DNA of 64,000 nucleotides from Diphasiastrum complanatum (Eukaryota > Streptophyta > Lycopodiopsida > Lycopodiales > Lycopodiaceae): contig CM055102.1 in assembly GCA_029204225.1 (NCBI GenBank), forward strand, positions 23,779,390 through 23,843,389, read 5' to 3'. The notes beneath the pieces were generated by a model. The model was not told where the DNA came from. It saw nothing but the letters and a program-made list of their open reading frames with translations, and did no database searches. The position numbers and the translations under genes were made by a program. Positions 11,473 through 43,100 of the stretch are shown one piece after another (within the stretch, counting starts at the first letter, position 1; each line of letters begins with the position of its first letter).

Positions 11473-11775
11473 GTCGAGACAACGAGGTTGAGTGTCCACA
11501 TGGACTAGTAGGCACAGTTGGATCAGATGGCATGCCCTAAACTATGTTCCTTAAATTGATCAAGGAAGACAGGCCCGTCCTCGAGATGCGGACAAGTCAA
11601 TGGGGACAACCTTGATAAGTGGGGATGGACAACTTGTAAACCTTAAACTGCGATTGCTAAATCGACTGATGAAAAGGCTCGTCCTCTAGCCCCTCAATGG
11701 TAGGTGGGAATAGGACAAGACAAAGCATAAGAAGTAAGTGCCAATGTTCTTTGTTTTTTTTAGGTGTATATGCAT

Positions 11776-11828
<53 letters not shown>

Positions 11829-11874
11829 TGTTTATTTAGGGTTTGAAGAAGGGGAGTGCTATTGCAGGAGAGCT
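11473..11874 (+). promoter_or_regulatory. SEC23 5' flank and probable 5' UTR with (GT)n(GA)n tract
   Basis: Only about 400 bp separate the element D target duplication from the SEC23 ATG. The stretch holds a compound microsatellite, (GT) then (GA), at about 11776-11826, 50 bp upstream of the ATG and so probably transcribed. No clear TATA box was identified; GTATATGCA at 11765 is a weak candidate. The rest has no recognisable content. Confidence 0.4.
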
Positions 11875-12202
11875 ATGGCTGTGCGCTTTACGTTTGGATG
11901 TTGTCCAGGAGATGCACAGGCACAGGAAGGCTGCGGTGTTCCATGGGGAGCCACCATCACTCCATTTGCTGCGGTTGATGAGACTGGCTCTACACCAGCC
12001 TTCGGGAAGCATGCTCAGCTGGTGCCTCGTTGCGAGAGCTGCTGGGCTTACATCAATGCGCTGTGCGAGATGGAGCAGTGGGCATGGACTTGTGCTCTCT
12101 GTGGGAATCTCAATGCCTTATCAGCTTCTGCAGCTGCCAGATACGCCCCGCCGCATTCCTGTCCAGAGCTTACTTCATCCTTTGTTGATTTAGAGCTGGA
12201 CG
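11875..12202 (+). CDS. SEC23: SEC23 exon 1 (residues 1-109)
   Basis: Starts at ATG 11875, whose MAVR.. start fits the family. It carries the zinc finger CESC..CALC and ends in the conserved SSFVDLELD. Donor GTATG at 12203, phase 1. Confidence 0.93.
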
Positions 12203-15200
12203 GTATGTTGAATTTCGCTTGCCAAAGCGTTCTTTTTTCACATGCCATGAACTGAATTCTTCATTCTGAACTACAGAGTTCGAAATGAACTAATTTACTA
12301 GCTTCATGCCACGACAAAGCAAATTCCATACTCAGGATGAATTTATTCCGGTGCCTTCAAATGTGAATTTTTGGGGATCGGGATGCAACTTGTTGCTTCT
12401 CTGTTCGCTGACTATCGCTATACAATCCAATTAAAGCCAGAGCAAAATATTATCCAGAATTTACATACTGTTGTTTCTTTAAATTTAGTCAATTACCCTG
12501 TCTACATGCTGAATGGAGCTGGAAATTGTCGTTGAGGCTGTGTTTACATGAGCTTGCCACAAACGTACACGCTCTTCCACTGACACACAGACAGAATGAT
12601 ATCAATTGGGATAGCATACTGTCCTCTGAAGGGGTGATTAAGATGATTTTTTGGAAGGAGACAGTGAGGATCTTGGAGATAGACACCTTAAAACATGGAA
12701 GGCTGAAGTTAGAGGGCATTCCCTTGCATAAAGGCCAACATGTGGCACTACGTCATTGCCTTATGTCAAAAGCCCTAGGCCTTACAAGGGTAGAGCTCAT
12801 CCGTGTCACTGACTGAAGTTGGACCTCAGATTGTATCCAGGGAGCGATCCTCTAAAAAAATGCCTGAGGTCTCTACATAAACCGGAACCCAATTTGCTGA
12901 CAAGAAGTCAGAGACAAAGTTCTGCAGTAATTCAATTACCTAACTTCGTGAATGCCAACCATTCACAATCATAAGATCACTCACTGACTGGAAGATTGAA
13001 AGCATTCAAAATCATAAGATCACTCACCGACTAGAAGATCGAATGGTTTTGTGATTAAGTAGAAAGTATTTCGCAAACAATTAGAACAATCCATAAGTAA
13101 ATCACGTAGAACATGAATGATTTACTGCATAATATTATATTGGACAACTAGAAAACCCAAATAAATCTTCTAAATTGCATAAAAGCTCGAACATCAACAG
13201 TGGTTATAAAATGTGTTTCTTGGAGGAGTAATGCGATGTCAATGGTCAACATCTGCATGTGGTGCTATTGCTTTGCATTGAGAACAATTGATGGTCCCTG
13301 CATTGGGACTAAGTTGTACTGCGATGGCGTTCTAGAACGCTGGAACATCATTCCAAAAAACCTTTAGCTGCTTTTTTTCACCTATCCACTTTGAGTTGAA
13401 TTTTTGACCCTGTTTTATAGGGTTTAGGTTTCTAATAGCCATGCTTGTTGCGAGACAAGGCATATTGGTAGAGCTGGATGAGACACAATAGTTTTTGCAA
13501 GTTTAGGTGCATGCAAGTGGAGTTGTCTATATTGCGGTAATACCTTTTGCAACATGACAACAAGGATCAGGTTGCATTGAGTCAGTTGGGGCAAGGTCTA
13601 CAAAGGCTAAATCCAACTGACTTTGGGGAGGCAAGGCAGAGGCAGGGAGTGTTTTGGAATGAGCGTATACGTGCAACAGTCGTTGAGTCAAGGGAGCAAC
13701 ATGTAGTGTATGTGGTCATTGACAATGTCAGCAATTGTGTTGCCATGGGTGAGCTTTTGGAAAGAGACTACCTTGCCATTGTGTGGACCTCGTGTGTAGC
13801 ACACTGCATCGATTTTTTGATGCACGACATAGGAGGCCTCCCCTAGGTTTCTACCGTCACATCTACTACCATGACCTTGCACATTTGGGACCAATAAGAA
13901 GAGGTCCTTGCCATTTCAAGACATAGAACTCGTTGGATTTGAAGAAGCCAACATCCACACGCTTTGCCTAGTACTTTGTCATCTTGGAGTGGTTGCTTCA
14001 GGTTCGACCCGTATTGCGCTAGATGGCAGCCAGCGCTTTCACACAGTGGGGTCTTAGTAACGAGTTGATTGGACTTAGGTTTCAAAAGACAGTTGGTGCC
14101 AAGCAACTGGTTGAGGTCACGCGGCCAATGTACCATGTGTTGAGGTTAGTGGATCAAGATGATTGTACACTTGGCCTTGTTTACGAGTTTATGGATTGGA
14201 TTGGGGACACACTTTAGTGACTGGTTCTTGATGATGAAGATATATATATTTTTCATTTGTTTTGCTCATTTATTTTGTAAAAGTTTTTCATATTTCAACA
14301 TTGTTGAGTTGTTCTTTTTGGCAAGAAAATGATTATTTTTCTTCTTTATGTAGGATATCAAGTGGAATCATTTCCACAAGCCAATACATGCAATTACTCA
14401 TTTGCTTCACCCTATGTGGGCCGATGCGCACAAATGCTAAGCTTGTGGACGACTAAGGGGGTATACACAGAGAATGTGTATGTAGGTTAGGATTATCCCC
14501 CAATAGGGCTATCTAACCCATCTTGTTTTCAACATTCATGTAATCGTCAATATTTTTTGTGTGATTTTGACTCCTCATTATTTATAAATTATAATTAATG
14601 ATATATAAACATATGTTGCAACATGCTTTGTAAAAATGACAATGTCCCCTATCTTTGTGCAGGTCATGGCTCTTTGTTGCACAGGATCAAGTGACAGATG
14701 TTAGATTTTGAGCGCAAACAAGGATGCTTCATTGGGTCTCAGGGCACAGTTACTTTCAAATGTTTGAAAAATTTGAAACTCAACGTTTGAAATGCTGTTG
14801 ACCCTTTTTTTAAAGTTTTGACAAACCCGTATGTTGATTTAAGGATCGGGAGGTTAAATGTGTTATTAAGCTGGTTCAACGAGCATGTAAAATGAGCAAA
14901 AGCATTGAATCGACTATGATAAACAACGATCATCATTTTTTCTGAAAACCCTTTCAATGATAGCAAACATTGACAAAATTCTACATTTCAAATGCGTTTG
15001 ATTAAAGTTTCGAAGGTAACTACGATTAATCTTGAATCCAGCTCCCGAGTCCCACCTATTGTTACGATCCATAATATATAGTACATACTTTGATGACTCA
15101 AGAGTCATGTTGTTAGAAAACCGACTTGATTATACAAGTAACCCAAGATAAGATTCCTATTGTTGTCATACACATGAGAGAGAACACAAACAACAATGAT

Positions 15201-32932: not shown

Positions 32933-32984
<52 letters not shown>

Positions 32985-33235
32985 CAGACATGAGGGTCCG
33001 GGCCGTTTTACCCGCGTCCGGCGTCCGGACTAGGACGCGGGGTCGGACGCGTCTATTTTTTTTTTTTAAATTAAAAAAAAAAAAAATAGATGCGTCCTGG
33101 GGTCCGGACGCCCGAGGACGCACGCGTCTAGGGGTCCGGACGCAATTTTTTTTTTGTTATTTAAAAAAAAAAAAATTGGACGCGTCCGGACGCGGACGCA
33201 CCCCTGGCGCGTCCGCGTCCGCCATCCGCTTCATT

Positions 33236-33295
<60 letters not shown>

Positions 33296-33500
33296 CATGA
33301 GGGTCCGGGCCAAAGTGCCCGCGTCCGACGCTCGAACCTGGACGCGTCCGACCCCCGGATGCGTCCTTTTTTAAAATTTTTTTTTTTTGGGCTGGACGCG
33401 ACGCGTCCGGGCCCTGGACGCGTTTTAAAAAAAAAAACAAAAGGACGCGGGCCCTGCGGACAGTCTGCAGAACTCGAGACTGCAACGAAAGAGGCTGGAA

Positions 33501-33575
<75 letters not shown>

Positions 33576-33872
33576 TGTTTGTGTGGGTGTGTGTGATGAG
33601 TTGTGTGCGTGTGTGTGTGTGTGAAAAGATATTGTTGATTTGTGTGCATACAATTGTGTGTGTGTGGTGATCTGTGTGAGAGAGAGAGAGAGGAAGAGAC
33701 AGAGAGTGTGAGGGATGGAGAGAGGGAGGATTTGTGTGTGTGCACAGTGTGTGTGTGAGTTTAGGATTTAGGTTTAAGGGTGCTTGGGTTTGGGGTTTAG
33801 GGTTTAGGGTTTAGGGTAGGGAGAGATTGGATTTGCGTGCTTGTGTGTGTGTGTGCGCATGAGGGAGAGTGC

Positions 33873-33946
<74 letters not shown>

Positions 33947-36900
33947 TGGCCGCTCATCCCATTTGGGATGAGGTGGAGGTGATGCCCGACAAAAAGTGGC
34001 GTTGCCCTTTTTGTCGAAGGCAGTTCACAGGGAACGCCTCTCGGGTTCGAGCACATCTGGGGGGGTTGCGAGTCCGACCCACGGGGGGAGGCTACGGGAT
34101 CGGCATTGGTATAGTCATCCCCGCTGCGGAGAGGGCTCACATTATCGAGACATATTCTGAGCCAGTTGCTGAGCCCGGCGAGTCGTCCACAGATGCCGCG
34201 GACTCTATTTCTACTGGTGCACCCACTGCCACCGCCCCTGCCACTGGTACACCCAGCGCCACCGCCCCCACCATCGCATCTGCACCCGCCACCGCCGCTG
34301 CATCCGCACCCGCCACCGCCACCGCCTCCGCCTCCGCCTCCGCCACAGCCACTCGTACCCCCTCCGCCAGTACTCCCCATGGATCCACAGCCTCCACTGC
34401 TGCACCTACGCCTCTGCCATCACCGTCAAATCTGCACGCATCTTCCGCACCTACACCTATGCCACCACCTCCAGATCCGCATCGTCCATCCACATCCTCC
34501 CAGCCATCCACATCCCGAGGCACCAGACAGATGTCCATGCCGGGATCTTTCTGAGAGGGGCAGCATAGAGAGTTCACCAGGACCATAGCATAGATGTTCT
34601 ATGACCTGAACCTCCCCTTTATCATGGCATCATCCCGCATCTTCCGAGAGGCTATCTCGAAAGTTGCAGTCTGCGGGCCCGGCTACACACCACCCACAGC
34701 CGACACACTACGAGGCCCTTTGCTCCAGGACCGGGTTGCATCACTCAGGGAGAGATTGACCGCACTGCACAAGGCTTGGGATAGATACGGCTGTTCCATC
34801 ATGGCTAATGGGTGGACAATCGTCGCAGACGTCCACTCATCAACGTGATTGTTTCTAGTTGTTACAGTTCATGTTCCTACGCAGCATCGACGCCTCCTAG
34901 GCAGGGAGAGTGCACTCGGCCACTCATCAACGTGATTGTTTCTAGTTGTTACGGTTCATGTTCCTACGCAGCATCGACACCTCCGAGGCAGGGAGAGTGC
35001 ACTCGGCCGAGTACATTTACGGCATCATTCGCGTAGCGATAGAGGAGGTCGGGCCACAGCGCGTTGTCCAAGTATAATTTTCTTTCATTGGTTGCTTGGT
35101 CATTTACTGCTTGATATTGATACAATAGTTTTGCGTAGTTTTCGATTGATTGCATTGTCTTTCCAAGTTGTGAACTGATCGTGTGAACGTATCGCGAAAG
35201 GTTGTGACGGACAATGCGTCCAACTGCCGCGGTATGGGGGCTTCTTATGGCAGACTACCCCTCCATTGTCTGGACTCCGTGTGCCGCACACTCACTGGAC
35301 CTCCTCTTACATTCCATCGGGCGCCTGCCTTGGGTCAGTGACATTCTCACGAGGGCACTTGCGGTTGTGGACTTCGTCACACGCAAGCGCCGCATGACGG
35401 CCCTTTTCCGCACATTCAGCAGGTAAGTAGCTACGATCTTTTTGGCTCGTTCAAGATGCTTCTTTATTTTTTGCTCGTTTCATGTGTGCCTCTCATTTCG
35501 TTTGTCAATGCAGGCTCGACTTGAAGAAGCCAGCTCGCACCCGCTTCACCTACCAGTTCATCATGCTTGAGCGGCTACACAAGCTCAAGGGTGAATTGCG
35601 GCACATGGCCACTTCGGCAGAGTGTCCACGACCCCAGAGGACTTGGCCTTCCACGACATCTTATTCATGGAGCCTTTCTGGGTGGATATGCAGCAGCTGA
35701 TGGACGTCATGTGCCCCATCTACTCTGTTCTGAGGCTCGTTGATCGCGAGGGGTGCACAATGGGCCTCATTTACGAGTTCATGGCCGCATAGGCGAGTCT
35801 CTCCAACGTTCCGAGCTGGACCTTGCCGAGTATACCTTTCTTCCGTCTCACCATCCTTACTTCCATTTCGCACTCTGTTTCGTCTTGCTGCCGCAACACG
35901 ATGGTATGTAACTGTTGCCTTCACGTGGTTTGGTCCACAGGTTGGAGCCTATCAGGCGCTTGTGGCAGCGGCGATGGGATAAGTTTCATCGGCCCATTCA
36001 CAGTGTGGCCCACATACTGCATCCGCGGTTTCAGAGCGAGAGGCAGTATGACGATGCAGATCTGCGTGCGGAGTGGTTCGCATACATCCGCCTCCTCAGC
36101 AGCGACTCTGAGTTCCGCAGCAGGCTCGAGGTGCAGAGGCTCGGTTACTGGTAAACTCTTGATCTATCGTAAGCTGTCGTTCGTTCAATTTCCCTACGCG
36201 GGCTCAAGTGTACTCAAGCATATCGTTGCTCAACTGCAGGCACTCTCTGGGGCTGTTCGGCGAGGACCTTGCACGTGTTTGAGAGAACAGGCTCTTGCCT
36301 ATATCATTGTGGGAGAGCTACGACGCCGGGCAGCCAGACCTGAGGACGCTCGCGCTCCGAGTCCTTTCACAGGTATGTTGTCTAATCTCATTCATCCAAC
36401 CAGTTGTCGCATTTTCTCTACAAGGTTGGTACTCACTCGAGTTGTTGCCAAGTAATGTAGGACTGTTCTGCTTGCGTGTGCGAGCGGAACTGGTCAGCGT
36501 TCAGCCTTGTTCACACGAACAGGCGGAACCGTCTGACGACGGAGTGATGCAATGACCTGGTGTATTGCAACACCAACACCAGAGTGGTTGGACGCATCAC
36601 GGAGAGCATGAGGGTAGGAGGCGCACGCGCCCTATTGCTGCAGGTATATTTCGTTGCTCTGTCGTTTTGCTTTCGTATTGGTTTAAGACATTCAGTTTAG
36701 GGCCCTCACGGTTGCTTCGACTATTCTCACGAATGATTGACTTGTGCAGGTCAATCCGATGAGTGCCTGGTTACAGCGGCAGATCATGAGCCAGAGCCAA
36801 AGGTTGATCCAGACGATGTCGCTCGGCGTGCTCTGCTGGGTGAGCCCGAGGATGATGCCGATGCTGATGAGACCACCACCCTCCCTGCTGACGTTCCATT

Positions 36901-39900
36901 GCCCTCTGATGATGATGAGCCCACATATGATTCAGATGAGACGGTCGACCTAGCAGGGGATGGTCCACGTGCCCCACCTAGTACCTCGCATCATGCCTTC
37001 TTTCCGATGATGGCTGGTCAAAATGGCCGTTCGACGGGATAGAAACGCAATCAGGTCACGTGAAATGGACTAGTTTTGCAGCTCTCTGTCCGACGGCCCA
37101 GTTTTTCCAAACAGGCTTCGTTTCGGGTGCCGTCCGTTTCGGCCAACCGACAACCTCGCCAGGAACCTGTGGGAGCAGACAGGACGAGGAACGGACGAAT
37201 GACCTGTAGTGAATGAAATAGTTTTGCATGAGTAATTACTAAGCTGTTGAAGTTCATCCAGGGGGAAAACCGATCACCTGACACAAGACACAGTACTGTG
37301 TAGAACCGTGAGGATAGAGGTACCTATACCTCTTGCAGGATGGTCGGTCATGTGATCCCCTGTAGTGAATGGCATAGTTCTGGTGACCATTCACTCTTCT
37401 GGTGTCCATTAACTTCTAGAGTTCAAAATTGTGAACAACAATTTTTTCACAATTGTTTTCATCAAGCCATGGAATTGAGGCACACCACAGAAGCCCATCA
37501 AAACGCGCAAAAGTGTGGACCTATCGTATGCTTTAGGGCCAACGGCTAGCAAACAAATGGCGAAAAGAAGGACATCAAATACACTGTTGAGCAAGATTCT
37601 TCTATTGATGAAGAGTACAAGCCTTCAGTTAGCCAGAAAGAAAGTTCGATCTCTTCCATAACTGGCGAGTGCGACTAACGTACTGAAGTTGTTTGGTTAC
37701 CGACGGGGATGGTGTAAATGAAAGTCAATTAGAGCAGGTTTTGCAATCAATATAGAGTTTGAAAGGCACTTGTGTTGGCTTTATACTGTTTTATGATTTA
37801 GGTTTTGGCTTCACTGCCAGGCAATGTTCACTACCCTTCCATCTGGACATTTGGCCAGCAAGCCTTGCAAGAAAGCAATGGTCAACAATGTCTTTCCAGT
37901 GCATGCAGACGAAAGGAGTGGTTGCGTCGCCCTTACGTACTCCCGGATTTTACCACGCCATTAATTGCTCCGTTTTCGACTCCACGCCAGACGTTTTTGG
38001 TGAGCCTTCAGAGAAAACACCAGCTGGTTTTTGATCAGTGGATCAGAAACCAGTGGGTGCTGTCTCTGTCGGCTCACCAAAAACGTTTGGCGTGGAGTCG
38101 AAAACAGAGCAATTGGTGATGTGGCAAGATTCGGGAACACGTGCTGGCGTTATAACCACTTCGACCATCTCCATGACCTGGAAAGACATTGTTGACCATT
38201 GCTTTCGTACAAAGTTTCGTGGCCAAACATCCAGATGAAAGGGTATTAATCATTGTCTTATCTATGCTGCTTCCTTGGGTGTTTGAGTTCAGGAAAATGG
38301 CTATTGAAGCCCATAAAATTTCCTTTCAAACTGTGTTCTTATTGCAAAACATGCTTTAACTGACTTTCACTCACACCGTCCCTGTCATATACCAAGCAAC
38401 TTCAATACTTCTGGCACACTTCAGATTTATGGAAGAGCTGGAACTTTCTTCCTGGCTAACTGAAGGTTTGCACTCCTCGTCATCATCAGAATCTTGCTCA
38501 ACAGTATCTTTGGTATCCTCCTTCTGGTCGTTTGTTCCCCAACCCCTAAATCTCAAACCGAACAAAAGGCCAACATTTTAGTGCGTTTTGAGGTGTTTGT
38601 GTGGTCCGCATCCCCGATCCCGTAGTGCGATGAAAACAACTGCAACAAAACTGCTGCTAATAGTGGTGAATGGTTGTTAGAACCGTGCCATTCACTACAG
38701 GGAGTGAATGGTCACTAGAAGAGTGGATGGTCATCATAACTGTGTCGACGACAAGGGACCCTTTCTGGACCATGAGTTGTTCTGCGGTGAAGTTAATTCC
38801 AATCCGTTGCGTTTCCTCGCCCTCGCCAGCTCGGGCAGGGGGGAGCAGGTCCGAGGACCGTGAGGGCACGTAGCTGTAGCTCCGGTAGTCGCCCCATTAT
38901 CTCACCCTAAAACCATGAAATTCTGCTTCTTGCTTCCGTTCGTTGTGTCGACAGACATCTATCAAACATGCTCCGACGAGTTGCCCATGTGATGTTGTAC
39001 CACCCCGAACCCTAAATCTATCTCATCACATAGGCCATGGTACTGTGTAGAATGCATTCTCCGTACGACGGCCCCGTTTCTCCAAACGGGATCCGTTTCA
39101 GGTGCCGTCTGTTTCAGCCAATGGACAACCTCGATATGAACCTGTGGGAACAAACAGGACGAGGAAACGACCGACGGTCGGCCCGCAACGTCCGCCCGAA
39201 GTTCAACGTTAAACAGGGCTTCAGGGACACTTTGTCCGGTCGGGACCTGAAAACTGGGAGATGTTTCGGAGCCCCCATGCTGGTACGCAAAATTCCGACA
39301 TCGTATTGTAGCGTGTTGACATGAGTAATTAGTAAGCTGTTGAAGTTCATCCGAGGAGAAACCGATCTCATCAACCGAGTCACAGTAGTGTATAGGTCTT
39401 GTGGTTTTCTGTAGTGAATGACACATTTTGCATAAGTAGTTAGTAAGTTGTTGAAGTTCATCCGGGGGGGAACCGATCTCATCAAATAAGTCTTAGACAT
39501 AGTAGTGTGTCGGTCTTGTGGTTTCCTGTCTTGAGAGCGTGTCACTCTTCTGATGAGCCCTAATTTCCCCCAGAGACTTCTGCTCCTGAGAGCTTGTCAC
39601 TCTTCTGGTGAGCGTTCACCTCTCCCCAATCCTCTGGTGAGCATTCACTTCCTTGAGACGGTCACTGATGCACCCTAAACCCTATACCAGTAATATGTTT
39701 GCCATACAAACCATCATCTTCACTCGAAACCACTCTCAGATCTTTCTTTGCTGCTTTTTTGGAGCTTAGTTCCCAATGAAGGTTTGTAATAATTTATGAA
39801 CTGCTCATTAGCCATGGTTGTTTAGTAATATCTCAGTTATGAGAGGCCTGGCCCAGTGGTTAGGTCTGTTGCAAATTTTTTTGGTACCGTTTTCCTATTT

Positions 39901-40091
39901 TTTAACAGGAGGGGGCAGGTGGGTGCCAGACACCCTCTGATAATTAATTCCGGGGGAAAAACAGGGGCCATAAATTGCTTTTAATTTGGTTTTTGGGATG
40001 GGGGACAGTGTAGGCAGGTGCCCGTTTTTTTTTTTTTAAATTTTTTTTTTGCAAAAAATCGGACGCGTCCGCGTCCGCCATCCGCTTCCTT

Positions 40092-40139
<48 letters not shown>

Positions 40140-43100
40140 TAGTAAAGAGTGCCCGTCGTTGACGGGCAATGGCGACCGATCTAGGTGGTGGCCGATGATT
40201 TGGAAATTGAGTATCTCGTTGACAGGAGATGATTTTTCGATGATTTGGAAATTTAGTATTGTCAGAAATGGTGAACGCTTGCAACTTTGTCGCAGCACGA
40301 ACAAGACACGAAGGTCGAACGAGAACAATTCGCGATAGTCAACGTGTCTTTGACTCGAAGCACGAACGATTCGCGAATCAATCGCGAATCGTAAACACAC
40401 CTCCAGGACCGCAAAGCGCAAAATGGACGCAAAACGAAAACTACGAAAACACACGAAGAGAAATCTTTCGCGCTGCCAGCTGGCAGCTCAACGGGCTTCA
40501 TGCCCAGCTGAAACGAATAGCAACGACGGAGACTAACTAACTAGTTGATTAGCATTAACTAGTCTTGTGATTCTACGTTTAGCTATCTTGTAAACTCCAC
40601 ACAGTGGAGTTATAAACGATCCTCTCTGGATCATAACCAAAAAGAGAGAAAAAGTGATGAGAATTTTACAGAGATCTGTAAGAAACAGAGAGAGACGTAG
40701 CGAATAGAGTAAGAAAGAAAAAATACCATAGTTGTGCATGAAAGTCTGCCAACGAGCAGAATGTTGGAATGTAAATGGAATTGCTTACATTACCATAGGT
40801 TACTTTGACCCAAAAGGTCGAGAGTTACTAAACTTAGAGCTAGCTAAGTTAGTATGAAATTAACTTGGTAGGGACTCATGGGTCCACTAGGCCTAATTGT
40901 GACATTAAGTACCCCAACTTGACATATTGGAGGTACCTTATTCTTTCTATGTAACTTATAGAAAGTTGGATAGTCAATAGTCAAGTAGTTGGACAGCCAA
41001 TAGTCAAGTAGTTGGAAAGCCAATAGTCAAGTAGTTGGATAGCCAATAGTCATGAAGTTAGATAGTCATCTTGGACTATATATATGTGTGCATCCCATTT
41101 GTATGTGACACTTTTGTAAGCAATACTGACTATTCTCCTTGGTTGTCCACGAGTTTCTACAAGAGGGTTTCTAGCCATCTCTCTCTTTCTTTCGAGAATG
41201 CTTTGTGTGATTGAATAGTTAAGATTTGGGATCCTTAGGCTTCTATTTCCTACATGGTATCAGAGCCTTTAGGTGATCATATTGCTTGCAGGAGGGCGCT
41301 CAATAGGAAGCTATCTTCTTCCCCTTTTGGTTGCAGAAAATCATCAAGTTGCTGATTTTTGCAGGAGAAGAATCTGTTCATCTTCTTATAGCTTTTTTGC
41401 AGGAAATTGCACGGCACCTTCACCTATTTGAGAGCTAGCAGTAGGGCGCCCATGCTCAAACCAATTGCATGTGATTTTCACTCAATTACATGCTGAAAAT
41501 TTCAGATTTACTTCTTAAATGAAGATACATGTGTTTTGGACACATTTCTTGCTGAAATTTTCCTATTGGTGAGCTTGGAGTAGGGCGCTACCATCAGCTC
41601 TATATGTACATAGTATGTACTCTTGTTAGCCACAAATTTCTGGTTTGGGTTTTGGCTTCATTCGAAGACTACCTATTTGTGAGCATTCTGTTTTTTGTGC
41701 AGAAATCAGCCACCTATTTCATTACTTGTTGAGCAAATTGCATGTGGAGTATTGCAATCTATTGTGCTCATAATTTCAGCTTTGAGGTTGCTGCCCTTTG
41801 AGTAGATTTTGACTTGGAAAGTCTATTTCCTATCTACTACAAGCTGATTTTTCTGTTATGGCTAAAGAATCGGAGTCTATTGGTTCTTTATATAATGAAG
41901 ATAGGCTGGATGGCACAAACTATTCCTTGTGGTGCTACATGATGAAGAACCTTCTAATTGCTAAAGGTTTGTGGGAAGTAGTTAATGGTGACGAAGAGAG
42001 GCCGCCTACCTTGGCACTTATTACACCATCTAGAACAACTACTTCTTCATCTACGGAAGTGTCTTCCGATGAGCAAAAGAAGTGGGATTGACGAGATGCA
42101 CAAGCACATTCCGTCATTGCATTATCAGTGAAGAGATCTATCCTTCCTCATATTAGATCATGCAAGACTTCCAAAAGTGCTTGGGAGACTCTTGCAAAGA
42201 TGTTTCAAGTAAAGAATGCAGCAAAAGTGGTATATCTTCGAAATCAACTTTCTATCTTGAAGATGCAAGAAGGTGATTTACTTAAAAACCACTTGACGAA
42301 GATCAAGGATCTTCGAGAGGAGCTTCTAGTATTGATGAAGTGATTGAGAACTCACAATTTGTATCTATTACTCTCAACTCTCTTCCTAATTCTTACCTTC
42401 CATTTGTTCATCATTGAGCACTTCTCTTAGGGGACAGCAAATCTCCTTCGACGAACTTGTTGACTTACTTCTTCAAGAAGAGCAAACAAGGATCAACTTT
42501 GGTGAACAAGAAGATCAAGCTTTCTTTGCAAAAGGCAAAGGCAAAGGCAAGTGAAAAGGGAAGCCTTTTTCAACAACACTTCCAAAGATGATAAAAAATC
42601 TAAGGAAGCTCAAGATCAAGGCTCCAAGTAGAAGGGTAAGTGCCACTATTGCAAGAAGTTTGGGCATCACATCAAAGAATGTAGGAAGAGGCTTGCAAAG
42701 GAAAAAGAGAAAGGTAACGACACAAGTACCGCAATCATTACTTTGGAACAACAATTTGGAAACGAGGATAATCTTTTCAATAATGATTATGCTTTTGTCA
42801 CTAATAATCTCATCTCTCCTAAAGACGAGATTTCTGCCACTTCAAATCTTGTTGGTTTTTCAGCAGAAAACAACTCATCTTTAGCTTTACAAGTTGCTGT
42901 TTTTTCATCTATTGATTGGGTGATTGATAGCGGTGCCACACGCCATATGACTTATAACAAAGAAGTTTTCACAAAGCTTGTGAAAGTGCATGATGGAAGC
43001 AAAGTTCAAGGTGTTAATAACACCTCTTATCCTATCAAAGGTATTGGAGTGATCCCCATTATCTTACCCAATGGTGAGGAAAAGTACATTCGTAATGTAC

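Follow-up and report, generated by a model that had tools for sequence, protein, structure and literature searches.

The window, a 64,000-nucleotide stretch of the Diphasiastrum complanatum genome (C11:23779390-23843389; host genome of 1.74 Gb in 5,176 contigs), contains two transposable elements with common ends, one small and one large, each lying between (TA)n microsatellites. Judged from sequence, and with a probability of roughly 87%, these elements belong to a family of hAT-superfamily DNA transposons (family 1) that strongly prefers (TA)n as its integration site. A hAT transposase gene is present in large copies, and derivatives of ~130-300 bp are reduced to the two tips and the subterminal regions rich in GGACGC. 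Common ends, a bias toward (TA)n, an 8-bp target duplication, a fixed position of the gene in many copies, the stacking of elements and a second (TA)n-prone family were all observed directly. Targeting of (TA)n is known in plants from Mutator-like elements; here it is found in hAT elements. Loci with the prefix L are sites taken from the host genome.

Runs of (TA)6 or longer occur in only three places in the 64 kb (32936-32977, 33239-33290 and 40095-40138), and these are the junctions of the two elements. The 5′ 20-mers lie at 32984 and 33291 and the 3′ 18-mers at 33215 and 40071, which confirms the three (TA)n junctions with element-specific ends proposed in the initial annotation; the sizes of ~255 bp and ~6.8 kb given there become 253 bp and 6,802 bp. 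Both elements share the ends CAGACATGAGGG...CCGCTTC(C/A)TTAG, and their exact limits were fixed by other genome copies with visible 8-bp target duplications. The leading T and trailing A, at first counted as element bases, both belong to the duplicated target. Indeed, the 5′ tip without its leading T (a 19-mer) has 909 exact occurrences in the genome compared with 498 for the 20-mer that includes it, which indicates that this T is part of the target. An element beginning with T and finishing with A was rejected, as T is absent before 411 of the 909 tips.

The subterminal short repeats that are a feature of hAT elements are present. GGACGC or GCGTCC occurs 14 times in the 253-bp element; in the large copy, it occurs 8 times in the first 170 bp and 3 times in the last 80 bp (47 and 37.5 per kb), with 3 occurrences in the 6,552 bp of interior (0.46 per kb). 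Only 3 are found in the 56,700 bp of the window outside the elements, a density exceeded ~1,000-fold in the small element and 700- to 900-fold at the ends of the large one. The richness in GGACGCG/CGCGTCC remarked on earlier is borne out by these counts. Terminal inverted repeats of hAT elements are short and of the form YARNG. The tips of family 1 (CAGAC, CAGGG and CAAGG at the 5′ end; CTAAG, as reverse complement, at the 3′ end) are hAT-like, yet the two ends match each other poorly.

The 5′ 20-mer is matched exactly at 498 sites in the genome and its reversed control at none, which excludes chance, and many copies start exactly at the proposed tip. The repeat TATATATAT directly precedes 180 of the 909 exact 5′ tips. 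On contig C1, the flanks of 42 of the 43 exact tips were read (C1:74532973 was left out; L025/L026 and L050/L088 are duplicate pairs). A TA run of at least 12 bp lies within 40 bp upstream in 13 of the 42 and one of at least 8 bp in 18, compared with 0 and 35, respectively, of 11,292 40-bp stretches of the window outside 32.8-40.3 kb. The corresponding values for the distal 3 kb of 20 loci were 0.8% and 1.3%, in a sample biased toward TA by the further elements that lie there. No T precedes the tip at 20 of the 42 C1 sites, and 19 of those 20 are without a TA run of at least 8 bp. Several elements are joined by (TA)n in the window and at L012, L022 and L069. Insertion into (TA)n and stacking within one tract, as in Micron, MuTAnT and SaTar, are both seen in family 1. 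The expectation that many copies would lie in (TA)n holds for a large share of them, and insertion there is a strong preference rather than an exclusive rule.

Target duplications are visible in copies outside (TA)n. Of the 115 places at which the sixth base of the flank beside the 3′ tip is G or C, 20 were fetched. A credible 5′ tip was found within 750 bp in 12 of these loci, and no 5′ tip was in view in the other 8. The 8-bp duplication anticipated for hAT elements was perfect (8/8) in 9 of the 12 pairs. The nine sequences, which abut CAGACATGAGGG...CCTTAG, are ATCTAGCC, TCCTAGAC, CTATGGTC, CTACACAC, GGCTAGAG, ATTCAGCT, TATTGGAG, CTCTACAT and GACTGGAG; tips among these copies, such as CAGGGATGAGGG and CAAGGATGAGGG, resemble hAT tips. 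A length of 8 bp is that of hAT elements, and the 9-11-bp duplication of Mutator-like (TA)n-targeting families was not encountered. A further 20 loci were drawn from the 41 places at which G or C stands seven positions upstream of the C of the 5′ tip. The 3′ tip was visible in only four of them, one of which (L043) has ACTTGTAT/ACCTGTAT (7/8). Of 59 distinct non-TA 3′ flanks, 44 have a central pyrimidine-purine step (TA 16, CA 17, TG 9, CG 2); these flanks come from the 100 places that were listed of the 115, a sample chosen for G or C at position 6. The sequence ATATATAT fits the same pyrimidine-purine center of a would-be duplication.

For copies in (TA)n, 16 end pairs, mostly in TA, were listed. 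In 13 of the 16, T is the last base of the left flank and A the first base of the right, which fits an even-length duplication and not one of 9 bp. Nine pairs, including both window elements, agree at 7/8 or 8/8. Other pairs agree at 4/8 (L018) or 6/8 (L085), and the 0/8 score of the L015 pair comes from an altered tip that was misparsed. In the eight positions preceding the 5′ tip, TATAATAT often takes the place of ATATATAT (L009, L017, L019, L020 and L027, plus five places with TAATAT). At L027, TATAATAT occurs without a longer TA tract, and at L017 and L020, the two of these loci with the 3′ end in view, the left flank is unlike the right.

Whether (TA)n was present before insertion was approached through the flanks. 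A search with the joined flanks of the window elements found no two-sided empty site among the 40 scored out of 1,823 candidates. The right flank, a dispersed repeat, was the only one to recur, with 38 or more further long matches in that set of 40. Copies of this repeat with plain (TA)n therefore stand in for the empty site. In 16 of 16 copies read (L090-L105), the repeat adjoins a (TA)n tract ranging in length from about 4 to about 40 units, and no family-1 end was present in the 110 bases shown beside it; the sequence past the TA tract is also alike in 8 to 10 of the 16. At L011, a 4.4-kb copy sits in a TA tract within a smaller family-1 element, itself flanked on both sides by AGCTGGAG. 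Both the right-flank repeat and the nested L011 copy fit insertion into pre-existing (TA)n.

The window's large element contains pieces of a hAT transposase gene, and all expected regions (the BED finger, the DUF659/RNase-H core and the C-terminal dimerization region) were found; among the Pfam matches of family 1, DUF659 at L028 (1.3e-23 and 1.1e-14) lies above the cut-off. The gene had initially been annotated as nearly complete; this is correct as to its regions, but the gene is broken by a stop at 34552, further in-frame stops and an 87-bp tandem duplication (34825-34998). Because of these lesions it cannot be a source of transposase. Among 20 loci of 10 kb selected by their 5′ tip, nine (L009, L010, L011, L015, L017, L024, L025, L026 and L028, of which L025 and L026 are duplicates) match the gene pieces downstream of the tip, at the same place and on the same strand. 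L013 carries the gene on the other strand, a long way from its tip, and the match at L016 is weak and confined to the first exon. The fixed place and orientation in 9 of 20 loci indicate that the gene is integral to the family. Complete hAT-bearing copies with TA on both sides measure 4,424 bp (L011), 4,500 bp (L017) and 6,802 bp (the window); the hAT-bearing copy at L015, about 4.2 kb, has an altered 3′ tip before (TA)n. The proposal that large copies encode the same transposase is thus upheld by the (TA)n-bounded copies of 4.2-4.5 kb at L011, L015 and L017.

The association between gene and tip was also approached from the gene. A 79-residue piece of the transposase gave 150 genome matches at 88%-93% identity (100% for the window itself), these being the 150 scored of 5,593 candidates. 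The 5′ tip lies 0.1-3.5 kb upstream, on the same strand, of 7 of the 25 matches on contigs C1-C3, as the exact 20-mer in six and as its first 16 bases only in one (C1:69566343). In the controls, the opposite strand gave 1 of 25, and random positions averaged 0.015, with a maximum of 1.

A second hAT family (family 2), with ends CATAG(G/A)TCC...CTATG and GGTACC-rich subterminal regions, occupies the same tracts. Its 21-base tip occurs 1,751 times in the genome, preceded by ATATATAT in 1,061 cases (61%). A 580-residue open frame at L012 contains DUF659 (Pfam, 1.3e-40), and the family 2 protein is 38%-39% identical to that of family 1 over 224-267 residues; a search of solved structures with this frame returned no transposase. 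Copies at L022 (858-7664) and L023 (867-6287) bear the hAT gene and have (TA)n at both ends. One copy at L020 (1778-2548) lies outside TA with CTTTGTAT on both sides. Family 2 was seen at L012, L018, L020, L022, L023 and L024 and is more abundant than family 1.

Several observations weigh against a (TA)n-preferring hAT family. A perfect (TA)n neighbor is found at only 20% of exact 5′ tips and, as noted above, 411 of the 909 have no preceding T, which indicates that many copies, including hAT-bearing ones (L074, L086 and L087), sit outside (TA)n. Matching duplications are missing from 3 of the 12 non-TA pairs chosen by the 3′ tip (L054, L056 and L062) and from 3 of the 4 pairs in the sample with non-TA 5′ flanks (L029, L034 and L042). 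Four of the pairs in (TA)n (L014, L017, L020 and one in L012) combine a left flank of TATAATAT with a right flank of ATATATAT and agree at 4/8. The two element ends are poor inverted repeats of each other. Dimer_Tnp_hAT (0.0048, L011) and zf-BED (0.015, window) fall below the Pfam cut-offs. For 18 of the 25 transposase matches on C1-C3, none of the listed tips lies upstream, which may reflect altered tips. Finally, the TA tracts may have grown after insertion.

This last point leads to an alternative that we consider unlikely, in which the (TA)n flanks are mostly post-insertion growth: an element preferring a pyrimidine-purine center would occasionally enter a short TA-rich site, and the duplicated ATATATAT would expand by slippage. 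The central step at non-TA sites is compatible with such a history, and for maize TAFT-type elements, TA target sites of 6-8 bp are reported to lengthen once the element has inserted (PMC5907723). However, the frequency of ATATATAT before family 2 tips is, by our reckoning, far above what a pyrimidine-purine preference alone would give, the repeat at the right edge of the window elements has plain (TA)n in all 16 other copies without an element, and one tract in the window is flanked by two elements. A less probable route bypasses the transposase: excised circles with TA ends would spread (TA)n-flanked copies by homologous recombination. A paper on carrot (PMC8227079) attributes this mechanism to Franco et al. 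for miniature inverted-repeat transposable elements (MITEs) inserted in microsatellites. Such recombination would account for multiple elements joined by (TA)n (window, L012, L022 and L069), but both ends are base-exact in most of the listed (TA)n copies, and other copies of the family outside TA have clean 8-bp duplications.

It is very improbable that family 1 is a Mutator-like (TA)n-targeting family in the manner of Micron, MuTAnT and SaTar, with the hAT gene merely captured or nested DNA. The (TA)n-targeting plant families met in the published literature are indeed described as Mutator-like. Against this stand the 8-bp duplication in 9 of 12 non-TA pairs, compared with 9-10 bp in those papers, and the constant place and orientation of the hAT gene in 9 of 20 loci. 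In addition, the 16 window pieces scanned contained hAT domains and a Piwi fragment and no Mutator-like domain, the open frames of other copies having been scanned in part. The Mutator-like reading was rejected on duplication length and gene content. It is hardly credible that the interior at 33.4-40.0 kb consists of independent insertions between ends that only seem to be paired. The window interior is larger and more repeated than that of L011 or L015, but L011, L015 and L017 have both ends around the same hAT gene within 4.2-4.5 kb. This rules out independent insertion for the gene, an outcome that had been named as one that would overturn the pairing of ends, and with it a nested, independent hAT element in the 6.8-kb stretch. 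Helitrons make no target duplication and have a 5′ TC and a 3′ CTRR. A Helitron (5′ TC, a hairpin near the 3′ end and an A/T target) was considered and dropped on the 8-bp duplications; the 3′ end is CTTAG.

For a (TA)n-preferring hAT family, the following mechanism can be proposed. The transposase would bind the GGACGC-rich subterminal repeats and cut the target with an 8-bp stagger centered on a pyrimidine-purine step. A (TA)n tract would be a run of overlapping best sites, favored because every second 8-mer within it (ATATATAT) would be an ideal one. As each landing would leave (TA)n on both sides, further copies could enter the same tract and build element-TA-element arrays. The miniature copies would be mobilized by the transposase of large copies; since the gene of the window copy is broken, its own movement would need transposase from elsewhere.

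Table 1. Coordinates of the elements and associated features in the window
Feature	Position	Strand	Remarks
(TA)n tract 1	32936..32984		ATGTATAT at 32977-32984, the final 8 bases, forms the left-hand target duplication of the 253-bp element
Miniature non-autonomous hAT element (MITE), 253 bp	32985..33237	+	CAGACATGAGGG...CCGCTTCATTAG; ends placed by 8-bp duplications elsewhere
(TA)n tract 2, separating the two elements	33238..33291		ATATATAT at 33238-33245 and 33284-33291
Large hAT element, 6,802 bp	33292..40093	+	Ends as in the small element; broken transposase gene inside
5′ subterminal region of large element	33292..33461	+	GGACGC/GCGTCC-rich (8 in 170 bp)
hAT transposase pseudogene, several exon-like pieces	33943..36697	+	BED-type finger about 33985-34059
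DUF659 pieces of pseudogene	34594-34845, 34946-35074, 35208-35423	+	Include the stretch TPCAAHSLDLLL
hAT C-terminal region of pseudogene	36461-36544	+	Around ERNWSAF
Extra internal segment of large element (approximate)	37021..39289		Absent from the 4.4-kb L011 copy and, with slightly different limits, from L015
Open frame, two tandem fragments like the Argonaute PIWI domain	38962..39489	-	Antisense to transposase; motif recurs elsewhere
3′ subterminal region of large element	40014..40093	+	Contains GGACGCGTCCGCGTCC; 3′ tip CCATCCGCTTCCTTAG
(TA)n tract 3	40094..40138		ATATATAT at 40094-40101 forms the right-hand target duplication of the 6,802-bp element
Another dispersed repeat begins	40139..40271		CTAGTAAAGAGTGCCCGTCG...; adjoins plain (TA)n in 16/16 other copies read

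The interior of the 6.8-kb window copy exceeds that of the 4.2-4.5-kb copies at L011, L015 and L017 by ~2.3 kb, and this extra DNA may be a later insertion. An imperfect inverted repeat with arms of ~490 bp (37552-38536) lies inside the extra segment and is absent from the 4.2-4.4-kb copies at L011 and L015. The antisense PIWI-like fragments (Pfam Piwi, 2.3e-7 in the window and 5.5e-9 for the best of three at L019; phmmer to Argonaute-2, only 0.0012) look like part of a host gene that was captured and multiplied along with the transposon. Such fragments were seen in or beside family-1 elements at L010, L011, L013, L015, L019, L028, L037, L049, L051, L068 and L069, and are in tandem in the window, L015 and L019. 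Elsewhere in the window, an open frame at 11764-12255 resembles, by eye, the start of a Sec23/Sec24-type gene.

Micron/rSaTar2 of rice and the SaTar families of guayule and rice are assigned to Mutator-like elements (PMC5907723). Like family 1, they include short (TA)n-flanked elements, modular arrays within one microsatellite and rarer large coding relatives; in contrast, guayule members outside microsatellites are reported to have 10-bp duplications (PMC5907723), whereas a hAT transposase and 8 bp are found here. The initial annotation had cited Micron as a microsatellite-targeting, non-coding family; it has since been tied to Mutator-like elements (PMC5907723). A survey of MITEs in 207 genomes likewise treats Micron as a (TA)n-inserting type that is likely Mutator-derived (PMC12550479). 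MuTAnT and AutoMuTAnT of Medicago truncatula also lie mostly in (TA)n, with short copies, a large transposase-bearing copy and some non-(TA)n copies with clear duplications, but differ in their Mutator-like transposase, 9-bp duplication and long foldback inverted repeats (PMC4486113). The Ac-mMITEs of pineapple, about 74% of which have a TA microsatellite on at least one side, form (TA)n-joined clusters; they are Mutator-like, with 9/10-bp duplications, and are described as having no autonomous partner (PMC8449440).

The nearest hAT precedent found is Hydra hATm-3, for which a figure legend gives a TATATATA duplication as an example; it is an animal element, and the passages on it make no mention of microsatellite targeting, arrays or miniature derivatives (PMC8721813). 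The Buster group of hAT elements (for example, Mar of Drosophila), compared here by its duplication, has 8-bp duplications with a central TA (nnnTAnnn) and hAT-derived MITEs, but (TA)n targeting is not mentioned in the parts of that paper that describe it (PMC3517528). No report of a (TA)n-targeting plant hAT element was found in the open-access literature searched. How elements are directed to TA microsatellites is called unclear in the carrot MITE paper, which discusses Mutator-like cases (PMC8227079).

The wider interpretation is tentative, its odds being a little short of even: a plant hAT lineage, represented by the two families, would have evolved dedicated (TA)n targeting independently of Micron and MuTAnT, with microsatellites serving as shared landing pads on which families stack, and the amplified antisense Argonaute fragments of family 1 could interfere with the silencing machinery. 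The finding bears on the origin and persistence of (TA)n tracts and stacked arrays in a large genome. A second superfamily with the (TA)n habit, for which the exact ends, the stagger, copies in and out of (TA)n and a coding partner are available, makes target choice testable on the transposase in vitro and may help to explain how elements choose TA-repeat landing sites.

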